Assembly: GCF_002198715.1 (NCBI RefSeq)
Contig: NZ_MWLK01000006.1
Span: forward strand, 1-64,000
Reading direction: 5' to 3'
DNA length: 64,000 bases
From: Rhodomicrobium sp. R_RK_3
GTDB taxonomy: Bacteria > Pseudomonadota > Alphaproteobacteria > Rhizobiales > Rhodomicrobiaceae
Within the stretch, counting starts at the first letter, position 1; each line of letters opens with the position of its first letter. The notes under the pieces were generated by a model. It searched no databases, had not been told where the DNA came from, and was given only the letters and a program-made list of their open reading frames with translations. Below, piece by piece: positions 12,180 to 41,600 of the stretch. Position numbers and translations under genes: made by a program.

Positions 12180-13153
12180 TCCCGTTCACCTTGCAGAAAG
12201 TCCTGACGGAGGCCGAGGCGATTGCCGCCGCCGGACAGGGAGGCCGCTACATCGCTGGCGGGACGACGCTGATCGACCTGATGCGCGAGGAGGTCGAGCG
12301 GCCGGAAAAGCTCGTCGACATCAACGCGCTGCCGATCAAGCACATCCGCGCCGAGGGCGGCGATCTCGTCATCGGCGCGCTGGCCCGCATGTCGGAAGTT
12401 GCGGCGCACCCGGAGACGCAGCGCTTGCAGCCGCTGATCGCCGAAACGCTGGTCGAGGGCGCCTCGCCGCAATTGCGCAATGTCGCCTCCATCGGCGGCA
12501 ATCTCCTGCAGCGCTGCCGATGCCCCTTTTTCCGGATGCTCGACGCCGGCTGCAACAAGCGCGCGCCCGGGACCGGCTGCTCGGCCATCGAGGGCCTCAA
12601 CGGCGGCCATGCCATCCTCGGCACCAGCGACCAATGCGCGGCGACCCATCCCTCCGACCTCGCGGTGGCGCTGATCGCGCTCGACGCGACGATGCGCGTG
12701 ACCGGCCCCGGCTATGAGCGGTCGTTCCCGGTGGACGAGCTGTTCCGGCTTCCCGGCACGACGCCGCATCTGGAACACACGCTGCGGCCGGGCGAGCTGA
12801 TCGCCGAAATCCGCGTGCCGGGCGGCCCCCACGCCCGGCGCGCGCGCTACCTGAAGGTGCGCGACCGCTCCTCCTATGAGTTCGCGGTCGTCTCCGCCGC
12901 GGCGGCGCTCCATGTCGAAGGCGGGATCGTCCGCGATGCCCGGATCGCCTGCGGCGGCGTCGGCACCAGGCCCTGGCGGATGCGGGCCGTCGAGCGCGCG
13001 CTGATCGGCAAGGCGCCGGATCGGGCCGCCTTCGAGGCTGCGGCCCGCCAGGCAACGGAGGGCGTCAAGCCGCTATCCGGCAATCACTACAAGGTCGAAC
13101 TGTTGCCGCGGACCATCGTCCGGGCGCTCGAAATGGCGGGAGAGGTCGCATGA
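12176..13153 (+). CDS. paoB: Aldehyde oxidoreductase FAD subunit, PaoB-like
   Basis: This is a 325-residue FAD-binding subunit (CO-dehydrogenase flavoprotein fold). FAD contacts are AGGTTLIDLM (27-36) and ASIGGNLLQ (104-112). Between them and the C-terminal domain is an inserted cysteine-rich segment with C114, C116, C126 and C135 around CNKRAPGTGC. In PaoB (YagS) and 4-hydroxybenzoyl-CoA reductase beta, an insert of this kind carries an extra [4Fe-4S] cluster, and this cysteine pattern fits the PaoB form. It passes electrons between the iron-sulfur and molybdenum subunits. It overlaps both neighbours by ATGA, so the three subunits are translationally coupled. Confidence 0.88.
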   Translation: MIPFTLQKVLTEAEAIAAAGQGGRYIAGGTTLIDLMREEVERPEKLVDINALPIKHIRAEGGDLVIGALARMSEVAAHPETQRLQPLIAETLVEGASPQLRNVASIGGNLLQRCRCPFFRMLDAGCNKRAPGTGCSAIEGLNGGHAILGTSDQCAATHPSDLAVALIALDATMRVTGPGYERSFPVDELFRLPGTTPHLEHTLRPGELIAEIRVPGGPHARRARYLKVRDRSSYEFAVVSAAAALHVEGGIVRDARIACGGVGTRPWRMRAVERALIGKAPDRAAFEAAARQATEGVKPLSGNHYKVELLPRTIVRALEMAGEVA

Positions 13154-39836: not shown

Positions 39837-40130
39837 TTACCCAAAAATACCCTTGAAAACTGGCCATTCCCAGACCGGCCCGAACAGTTGGCCGACCGCC
39901 GCGACGCCGCCGATCACCAGCGACAGATAGGCGACGAAGCTCGTCCGCCCCTGCTTCTGCCCGATCTGATAGATAATATCGTTCTGCTCGGCGAGCTTGG
40001 CGGCGATGCGCTCCGCGATCAGTTCGGCGGCGGCACTGTTGGTCTGCATCGCGGCGTTGGCGAGGCTGCGCTCATGCTGCTGGCGGACGAATTCCTCGTG
40101 GCGGCGCTGCGCTGCATTGTCGATGCTCAT
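39837..40130 (-). CDS. Small membrane protein with a coiled-coil-like N-terminus
   Basis: This 97-residue protein is not recognised. The first 65 residues are charged and helical with heptad-like spacing (HEEFVRQQHERSLANAAMQ, AERIAAKLAEQND). A single hydrophobic segment (FVAYLSLVIGGVAAVGQLF, about 69-87) follows, so it is probably a C-tail-anchored inner-membrane protein. The ATG at 40130 has GGGAGG six bases upstream, strongly preferred over an upstream in-frame start. It is convergent with the sulfotransferase gene with only 5 bases between them. Confidence 0.65.
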   Translation of the reverse strand: MSIDNAAQRRHEEFVRQQHERSLANAAMQTNSAAAELIAERIAAKLAEQNDIIYQIGQKQGRTSFVAYLSLVIGGVAAVGQLFGPVWEWPVFKGIFG

Positions 40131-40459
40131 CGGAAACCTCCCTTGCCGAGCCCGGACCCCAAATTCCTTGCGCTTTTTATACTGCCCATGGGCCGAGATA
40201 AAGACGCCCGCCGCGGAATTTCCGATGCAGTCTCCGTAGGCCTCGCGTAAGGCTGCGCCGCTATTGCCTGCGCCAACATCGCGCGGGACTGCCCGATCCG
40301 CCATAGCAACGCGCCCGGCGGCGAAGCGCGAGCTTTCACGCTGTTACACCCGATGAGGCCTTCACAGAACCGCAACAGAGATATAGTATCCCAGACCATA
40401 CGACGTCGTGCGAGCGTCTCTGCATAGGCCAACGGGTTCAACCGTCAGGAAAGGCAGAC
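40131..40459. other. Divergent intergenic region upstream of the HNH gene
   Basis: These 329 bases hold no visible gene. For the small membrane protein, TATAAA on the minus strand (40181-40176) is a fair -10 and is next to a GCCCATGGGC palindrome (40184-40193). The HNH promoter is listed separately. Confidence 0.4.
40361..40409 (+). promoter_or_regulatory. Candidate HNH gene promoter with downstream palindrome
   Basis: TTCACA (40361-40366) and TAGTAT (40384-40389) are 17 bases apart. The expected start near 40396 is followed at once by ACGACGTCGT (40400-40409), a perfect 10-bp palindrome suited to a repressor. The leader to the GTG at 40460 would be about 64 bases. Confidence 0.4.
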
Positions 40460-41029
40460 GTGACCGCCCTAGCACACGCATCCTCTCCGCCGGAGGCGTT
40501 TCCGGCGCTCGTTCTCAACGCCGATTACCGGCCGCTCAGCTATTATCCGCTCTCGCTTTGGGGGTGGCAGGACACCGTCAAAGCGGTGTTTCTCGACCGC
40601 GTGAACATCGTTTCCCATTACGACAAGGCCGTGCGCAGCCCGACCTTCGAAATGAAGCTGCCGAGCGTCGTGTCGTTGAAGGTCTTCGTGAAACCGGCGC
40701 TGTATCCGGCCTTCACGCGGTTCAACGTGTTCTTGCGCGACCGCTTTAGCTGCCAATATTGCGGCGATCCGCATGACCTCACTTTCGACCATCTCATCCC
40801 CCGCTCGCGCGGCGGACTGACCCGGTGGGATAATGTTGTCACGGCCTGCGCGCCATGCAATCTGAAGAAGGGCGGCGACATGCCCAAAAAGGCGAAGATG
40901 TGGCCCTATCAGACGCCCTATCGCCCGACCGTCCACGAGCTGCATCGCAATGGCCGGCTGTTCCCGCCGAACTATCTGCATGAAAGCTGGATGGACTATC
41001 TCTATTGGGACACCGAGCTGGAGCCGTAG
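40460..41029 (+). CDS. HNH endonuclease family protein
   Basis: This is a 189-residue stand-alone HNH protein widely conserved in alphaproteobacteria. It has a zinc-binding CQYCGDPHD (C98, C101), the HNH core TFDHLIPRSRGG (D110-H111) with the following WDNVVTACAPCNLKKG, and a second CxxC. The N-terminal ALVLNADYRPLSYYPLSLW segment is typical of this chromosomal subgroup. The start is GTG with GGAAAGG upstream. Such proteins may act in DNA repair or processing; the target is not known. It is not next to a methylase or a defence gene. Confidence 0.85.
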   Translation: MTALAHASSPPEAFPALVLNADYRPLSYYPLSLWGWQDTVKAVFLDRVNIVSHYDKAVRSPTFEMKLPSVVSLKVFVKPALYPAFTRFNVFLRDRFSCQYCGDPHDLTFDHLIPRSRGGLTRWDNVVTACAPCNLKKGGDMPKKAKMWPYQTPYRPTVHELHRNGRLFPPNYLHESWMDYLYWDTELEP

Positions 41030-41090
41030 TCTCTTCCCACGGACTATTTTCTCTTGTCATTCCCGCGAAGGCGGTATGGCGGCACAAAAA

Positions 41091-41117
41091 AACGGGCGCC
41101 CACCAGGAGCGCCCGTT
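41091..41117. terminator. Bidirectional intrinsic terminator
   Basis: AACGGGCGC (41091-41099) pairs exactly with GCGCCCGTT (41109-41117). On the minus strand the stem is followed directly by seven U (from the A-tract ending at 41092). On the plus strand a T-run comes after three bases. It should end the HNH transcript and, more efficiently, any minus-strand transcript arriving from 41.6 kb. Confidence 0.75.
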
Positions 41118-41227
41118 CGAATTTTTACGCGATCGCAAACACCCGATGCGGCAGGCGATACGCTACTCTTCGAACGCCCGGCAAATTTCCTCGGCAACAC
41201 GCATTACAAGACCGGCCGCTCCACTCG

Positions 41228-41337
41228 ACGCCACGCTACGCAACCGACGCAATACCAACCGACGCAACGCGACAAACGCAACTGAACGCCACTCGACTCA
41301 ACCAACGCAACTCTACGCAACAACGCAACGCCTCAAC
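41228..41337. repeat. Roughly 10-bp-phased ACGCAAC heptamer array
   Basis: Seven copies of ACGCAA occur at 41238, 41247, 41262, 41276, 41305, 41315 and 41323. Variants fill the gaps: ACGCCAC at 41228 and 41286, ACTCAAC at 41296 and CCTCAAC at 41331. Most starts are 8-10 bases apart, about one helical turn. The plus strand is strongly A/C-rich, so the minus strand reads GUUGCGU repeatedly. It lies between the bidirectional terminator and the 3' end of a small minus-strand gene. It does not look coding in any frame. No spacer/repeat structure of a CRISPR is present. Confidence 0.65.
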
Positions 41338-41354
41338 TCGGGGGCTCGCGGGAC

Positions 41355-41372
41355 GGCCGGCTAGAACCGGCC
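41355..41372 (-). other. Hairpin spanning the stop codon of the 79-codon gene
   Basis: GGCCGG (41355-41360) pairs with CCGGCC (41367-41372). The loop CTAGAA contains the TAG stop (minus strand) of the gene at 41361-41600. No T-run follows, so transcripts may continue into the phased repeat array as a 3' untranslated region. Confidence 0.45.
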
Positions 41373-41600
41373 AGCCCTGACTTCGGCCAGTGGCGCGATC
41401 TCGCGGAAGAGCGGCAATTCGGGCTGAATACGGTTTTCCGCACGCGGGGAATGCAATGCGGCGTCGAAATTGAGGGATTCCGTCGCCATGAATTCAGCCT
41501 GCTTCATTCGCTTTTCCGCAACTGACCGCAGGATCCCATTGGCCAGATTGCCCAATTGCTTCCAATCGGACGGGTACTCGTGCTCCACTTGACGCTCCAC
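41361..41600 (-). CDS. Small protein of unknown function
   Basis: This frame of up to 79 residues is not recognised. It starts at GTG 41600, or at ATG 41507 (48 residues) where GGAAAAG gives a better SD. It is charged, without a membrane helix, with a SVAEKRMKQAEFMATESLNF stretch followed by a proline-containing tail ending LFREIAPLAEVRAGRF. Upstream is an unusually AT-rich region with an inverted repeat, and downstream a hairpin and the phased repeat array. Expression is plausible but unproven. Confidence 0.45.
   Translation of the reverse strand: MERQVEHEYPSDWKQLGNLANGILRSVAEKRMKQAEFMATESLNFDAALHSPRAENRIQPELPLFREIAPLAEVRAGRF

Follow-up and report, generated by a model that had tools for sequence, protein, structure and literature searches.

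Organization of the locus

The window analyzed here, the 64,000-nucleotide stretch at the beginning of contig NZ_MWLK01000006.1 of Rhodomicrobium sp. R_RK_3, carries a short repeat array between two convergent genes, one encoding a small protein and the other an HNH endonuclease (Table 1). Read along the minus strand, the small gene (41588-41361) is followed by a hairpin over its stop codon, the array, the block GTTGCCGAGGAAATT and a 12-pair terminator with seven U. The array starts 189 bp from the HNH stop codon. The small protein has no Pfam or NCBIfam match, and AlphaFold models it as a single helix at residues 8-46 (mean pLDDT 68.7), which gives no clue to its role.

An earlier note on this DNA had described the terminator as bidirectional. 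The minus-strand half of that description is borne out by a stem of 12 pairs at 41118-41090 (z -4.8) and by the plus-strand run of seven A (41086-41092), which gives the seven-U end. The scan found a terminator on this strand only; the plus-strand stem also folds, with a T run that begins a few bases late. The hairpin over the small-gene stop codon, also proposed in that note, is present in both sequence and predicted fold. Near the HNH gene lies a 155-amino-acid gene (39837-40304), and a similar reading frame is found near HNH in a relative of another genus (G002, locus L009). By eye it is arranged differently there, a sign of rearrangement around HNH.

Table 1. Features of the array locus in the window and of an array locus in a second family (f2)
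Feature	Position	Strand	Remarks
HNH endonuclease gene (PF14279/PF01844)	40460..41029	plus	convergent; 8 of 11 f2 array loci have a close relative as direct convergent neighbor
Intrinsic terminator	41086..41118	minus	12-pair stem and seven U; z -4.8; G002 counterpart in L029 at about 1254-1290
Block GTTGCCGAGGAAATT	41184..41198	minus	exact in G002 between array and terminator (alignments)
Degenerate pentameric array	41218..41345 (about)	minus	plus strand ACNCN, sometimes ACCG/ACCA; minus strand U-N-G-C/A-G, GUUGCGU/GAGUUG; earlier core 41228-41337
Hairpin GGCCGG-CTAGAA-CCGGCC	41355..41372		6 bp; loop holds the small-gene stop codon; on the plus strand, comes immediately after the array (sequence and fold)
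Small protein gene	41361..41588	minus	75 aa if read from the inner GTG, 79 aa from 41600
f2 hairpin R1, GGCARRC...GYYTGCC	L086:1930-2116, L094:1840-1990, L134:2459-2640 and 8 more f2 loci		about 95 nt; upstream of the small gene

The array is one-stranded and has a unit of about 4.8 bases

Within the 110 bp at 41228-41337, the plus strand contains six exact copies of ACGCAAC, and 12 when up to one mismatch is allowed. Neither count was matched in 5000 mononucleotide or 5000 dinucleotide shuffles, which confirms the heptamer array described earlier and answers the concern that A/C-rich composition would produce as many heptamers. In a looser control, some heptamer occurred six times in 6 of 5000 mononucleotide shuffles and in none of 5000 dinucleotide shuffles. 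GTTGCGT is absent from the plus strand at 41150-41400, so that the array is one-stranded, in line with the strand bias given in the earlier note. Across the source genome (5.79 Mb in 39 contigs), this is the sole place with three exact heptamers at gaps of up to 20 bases. Five clusters of at least six GCGT within 124 nt were found in 464 kb of the same genome, the array being the only intergenic one. The sense strand of the array holds 13 GCG and seven GAG triplets, and its folding is no different from that of shuffles (z 0.27).

The spacing had been read as helical phasing, the heptamers lying close to one DNA turn apart, and this part of the description does not survive. The starts of the 12 near matches are spaced 5, 5, 9, 15, 5, 9, 10, 10, 9, 10 and 8 bases apart. 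Autocorrelation peaks at 5, 10, 14/15, 19, 24, 29 and 34 indicate a unit of about 4.8 bases, and the Fourier peak at 4.8 bases was reached by none of 400 shuffles. Tandem Repeats Finder (TRF) returned periods of 5, 10 and 19 with 63-80% matches, and the five-letter motif recurs in about twenty copies. At 10.5 bases, by contrast, 307 of 400 shuffles attained as much Fourier power and the Rayleigh statistic was low (R 0.13, p about 0.8). Of six periods tried, 9.5 bases, double the basic unit, gave the strongest Rayleigh signal (R 0.62, uncorrected p about 0.01). The apparent helical phase is thus every second unit of the real repeat.

A looser counterpart in one relative

Comparison within the family (f1, eight genomes searched) identified the small gene in two members, the source genome included. 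The protein of G002 is 56% identical and has its GTG start at the same place. Also kept in G002 are the terminator, the block GTTGCCGAGGAAATT and a looser GCGU cluster: its spacer contains six ACGC on the plus strand in 116 bases (0 of 20,000 mononucleotide shuffles) and has stretches in common with the window, for example ACGCATTAC and TACGCAA. This cluster is less regular than the window array and has no regular spacing, so that the one relative with a cluster speaks against conserved phasing. Within the family, an array at the HNH locus of relatives, for which the earlier note had proposed to look, was likewise not seen. The six other family members have none in the 3-4 kb around HNH, nor a triple heptamer anywhere in their genomes, and the G002 array is not beside HNH. 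Matches to the small protein occur in two of 397 genomes of the order, the source genome being one. A two-row profile matched two of 385 genomes of the class, the source genome and, weakly, G441, whose match looked unrelated.

Sense-oriented arrays elsewhere

The triple heptamer is present in 15 of 397 order genomes, once (G089) in coding frame, compared with four of 397 for the reversed control. Double heptamers are found in 119 of the 397, many by chance or in coding sequence. A sample of the phylum gave no excess (8 of 339 genomes for both the motif and the reversed control), and its matches outside the source genome are six regular tandem repeats and one irregular one (G1043). Perfect pentanucleotide arrays, (ACGCA)n, occur in another part of the phylum (G785:C21 and G1020:C28) and are possibly phase-variable repeats. 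Locus L082 contains a perfect run of 25 GAGTT at sense position 1375, the repeat unit of the synthetic ligand of TRAP (trp RNA-binding attenuation protein).

We surveyed strand orientation at 105 distinct sites (loci L080-L186 and the window), of which the gene caller placed 72 between genes and 33 within genes. Between co-oriented genes, 37 sites are sense and nine antisense, a ratio inflated by miscalled starts: two-heptamer matches 4-12 bases before the called start in families f16, f50 and f34 resemble coding signal peptides (ATG TTGCGT...). Restricting the count to 40 stronger sites and merging rows by hand left 13 sense and three antisense (p 0.021). This count derives from 21 sense-sense and three antisense-antisense intergenic rows, with eight rows of the f2 locus merged into one, L161 and L180 dropped as coding-like, and one f50 tail (L088-L090) added once, which the caller had put in an antisense reading frame and alignment places after a stop codon. 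Without L127, where the called start lies inside the site, the count is 12 to 3 (p about 0.035, by hand). The reading of sites by eye took in only parts of L134 and L135.

Clear 3'-tail arrays, located by eye after a stop codon and before a terminator, were found at L091, where the preceding gene is presumably groEL-like, at L145, L149 and L173, and at L088-L090. The last three are from three f50 species of one genus and follow the stop codon directly, with two variable positions among the first 43 columns. Within a 464-kb sample of the source genome, GTTGCGT has no general sense bias (2 versus 2 in co-oriented intergenic stretches). The 5 versus 0 counted there after stop codons are the copies of the window array within that reach, and a genome-wide code in untranslated regions of this organism was therefore discarded.

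A viral collection yielded at least 120 stretches. Among the 80 loci that were read, an open frame spans the site in 51; four are non-open and show strong strand bias. On viral contig IMGVR_UViG_3300012016_000046 (L250, about 12700-12800), the 15-base unit GTTGCGTTGAGTCGA occurs about five times, in the same vocabulary as the window array. No report of such a GUUGCGU repeat was found by title among the literature matches listed, which does not prove its absence from print.

A GCGU-rich non-coding locus in a second family

Triple heptamers were found in seven of 20 searched f2 genomes (by row count). The locus comparison covered 11 of these 20 genomes, and the 11 loci, from six genera, proved orthologous to one another. 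Next to a gene that we take to be DsbB-like come 0.7-1.4 kb in which no gene was called, then a small gene (called at 70-86 aa in some loci and matched by the profile in the others) and finally the convergent HNH gene. HNH follows directly at eight of the 11 loci; in L134 one gene intervenes, and in L085 and L153 HNH was not seen. Each region contains 16-38 GCGT on the sense strand and 1-6 on the other. GTTGCGT heptamers had served to find these loci and were therefore masked; in the remaining non-coding sequence (about 1 kb per locus, 11 loci) GCGT still numbers 228 sense versus 29 antisense. Permutations of GCGT are less biased, GTCG coming next (93 versus 30). CGTG numbers 83 versus 45, CTGG leans the other way (18 versus 46), and CGGT, TCGG and GGTC are almost evenly divided.

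Upstream of the f2 small gene, alignment revealed a hairpin of 26 pairs, 17 of which are changed on both sides, a number that none of 500 shuffles reached, with the structure predicted from the same alignment. Eleven of the 500 shuffles reached its value for further pair types, one of five measures. Its loop carries an invariant GCGU (11 of 11). Rfam gave no match at gathering scores in 10 of the 11 loci (16 loci searched in all) and none at E up to 5 in L134. These alignments make the hairpin a candidate for a new structured RNA. Eight of the 11 loci (for example L086, L094 and L153) share an exact promoter-like block with TTCGCGGAACAC, which is varied in L134, L140 and L083; this block suggests that the f2 non-coding region has its own promoter.

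Like the f2 loci, the window has a sense GCGU array next to a convergent HNH gene. Arrays beside the same HNH gene in two families are unlikely by chance (roughly 1/100 to 1/1000). The hairpin R1 had no match in the window and G002 loci, and the promoter-like block was not found in the window. In a gapped comparison, the window site was among the best 10 of 8528 stretches and no better than the others. An EH-x4-W-x-Q hint of homology between the two small proteins was rejected (hhalign probability 1.3%, 11 columns, E 0.041; missed by the f2 profile). The array lies 3' of the small gene in the window and 5' in f2. Because hairpin, block and small protein are not common to the two loci, a shared origin is plausible rather than demonstrated, and a shared function would be an inference.

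Interpretation of the array

The array probably belongs to an RNA with a regulatory or terminating role. Our best reading, to which we assign a probability of about 40%, is that it is a multi-site GCGU platform in the untranslated 3' RNA of the small gene. The minus-strand mRNA would run through the array into the terminator, and its GUUGCGU/GAGUUG pentamers would offer many GCGU-type sites to a putative oligomeric or multi-copy RNA-binding factor, which could control transcript stability, termination or translation. The window array would then belong to a scattered class of sense GCGU arrays in untranslated RNA of Hyphomicrobiales, with the f2 non-coding locus as its best developed member. 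The 3' untranslated placement, proposed in the earlier note, is favored by the anatomy of the locus, by the small reading frame retained in G002, and by the sense bias of arrays elsewhere, several of which lie between stop codon and terminator.

The motif-specific GCGU enrichment in f2 makes such a platform a live explanation. A platform of this kind accounts for that specificity and for the sense bias, and also for the 3'-tail position and the structured RNA of f2. Among the points that weaken it are the absence of a known binder and the predicted folds, in which GCGU is not preferentially unpaired (0.242, compared with 0.17-0.36 for its permutations). Also against it stand the absence of the f2 hairpin, block and protein from the window, the location of the array on the other side of the small gene, the six family relatives without an array and the lack of a general GTTGCGT sense bias in the 464-kb sample. 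A bolder version holds that Hyphomicrobiales use a previously undescribed RNA code, with GCGU/GUUGCG clusters in 3' tails, leaders and a structured non-coding RNA of about 1 kb beside the conserved HNH gene, all bound by a putative multi-site factor. The window array would represent this code in a 3' UTR and would descend from the same ancestral locus; we consider this version rather doubtful.

Alternatively, the plus strand may be the functional one, a fit that the earlier interpretation had not considered: the array would be a Rho utilization (rut) site and the hairpin at 41355-41372 its pause site, ending read-through from HNH and shielding the small gene from antisense transcription. We regard this as a close rival, somewhat less likely than the sense-RNA platform. 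It accounts for the composition of the plus strand and its lack of structure, and for both the hairpin after the array and the convergence of the HNH gene. The plus-strand C/G ratio rises to 2.75 in 78 nt, the 99.97th percentile of a 400-kb sample of the same genome and, in a separate scan, rank 105 of 308,256 windows, with C regularly spaced, the hairpin just downstream and little propensity to fold (z +2.76; folding at least as good in 199 of 200 shuffles). As far as the account of rut sites given with RhoTermPredict goes (PMC6407284), the array conforms to it. HNH reads toward the array in the window and in eight of 11 f2 loci, and the maximum C/G is higher on the antisense than on the sense strand in 10 of 11 f2 loci. 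Against these points, C/G is equally high at 24 other places in the 464-kb sample and is higher on the sense strand in L150, L138 and L145. The f2 regions overall have about as much G as C and are enriched most strongly for GCGU, not for C-rich antisense words. The excess of GCG over GAG triplets means that most units carry a plus-strand G, which rut sites avoid, and the covarying f2 hairpin with its GCGU loop argues for a sense-RNA role in that family.

It is also conceivable, if improbable, that the array is a neutral relic: a few ancestral copies would have expanded in this lineage by pentanucleotide slippage, with the untranslated location making the result tolerable. The period near 5, the perfect pentamer runs in L082, G785 and G1020, the small gene in only two of eight family genomes and the less regular G002 cluster are all in its favor. 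Slippage thereby explains period and patchy distribution but not orientation or motif conservation: neither the sense bias, nor the near-invariant tails of the three f50 species, nor the f2 motif enrichment over about 1 kb in six genera would be expected. These readings can be combined, since slippage may produce repeats that selection then retains. The other function earlier envisaged, protein binding to helically phased or curved double-stranded DNA, has very little left to recommend it: seven of 11 gaps measure 8-10 bases and the 9.5-base period has nominal significance, whereas periodicity at 10.5 bp does not exceed that of shuffles and G002 is irregularly spaced.

If the sense-RNA platform is correct, an order of mostly environmental bacteria gains a motif-based element of untranslated RNA, together with a covarying non-coding RNA without Rfam match, and offers a direct experimental handle, with array RNA as bait and one conserved locus for deletion. 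If the plus-strand reading is correct, pentamer expansion builds a Rho-loading site between convergent genes. Under either, the idea of helical phasing can be dropped.

Comparison with known systems

The triplets in TRAP targets are separated by spacers of two or three bases, and the window array resembles such targets in presenting many short G-rich RNA motifs at a spacing of about 5 nt. As described in connection with its crystal structure, TRAP binds 11 GAG/UAG triplets, the crystallized ligand being (GAGUU)10GAG (PMC4854314). The array differs in that its triplets are mostly GCG, fewer being GAG, and in not being located at a trp leader. Where about 11 (G/U)AG at 5-6 nt spacing would characterize a TRAP site, it has nine such triplets and a longest chain of two.

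The minus-strand stretch 41159-41078 bears a weak full-length likeness to the mmgR/suhB sRNA (RF00519), which we rejected at 18.9 bits against a gathering score of 41. The source genome has an RF00519 match above the cut-off elsewhere (C4, 68.8 bits), and most control genomes have sub-threshold matches.

With pentanucleotide variable-number tandem repeats (VNTRs), the array shares the period near 5 and the tandem arrangement, and it differs in the low identity of its units (63-80% by TRF) and in the sense bias of arrays across genomes. The outline of rut sites in RhoTermPredict is that of a C-rich, G-poor, unstructured stretch of 70-80 nt with regularly placed C, followed by a pause site (PMC6407284). 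The plus strand of the array offers an unstructured 78-nt stretch of this kind, with C/G well above 1, regular C and a hairpin after it. It departs from the rut type in consisting of a regular pentamer most of whose units carry G, and the enrichment in f2 is strongest for GCGU.
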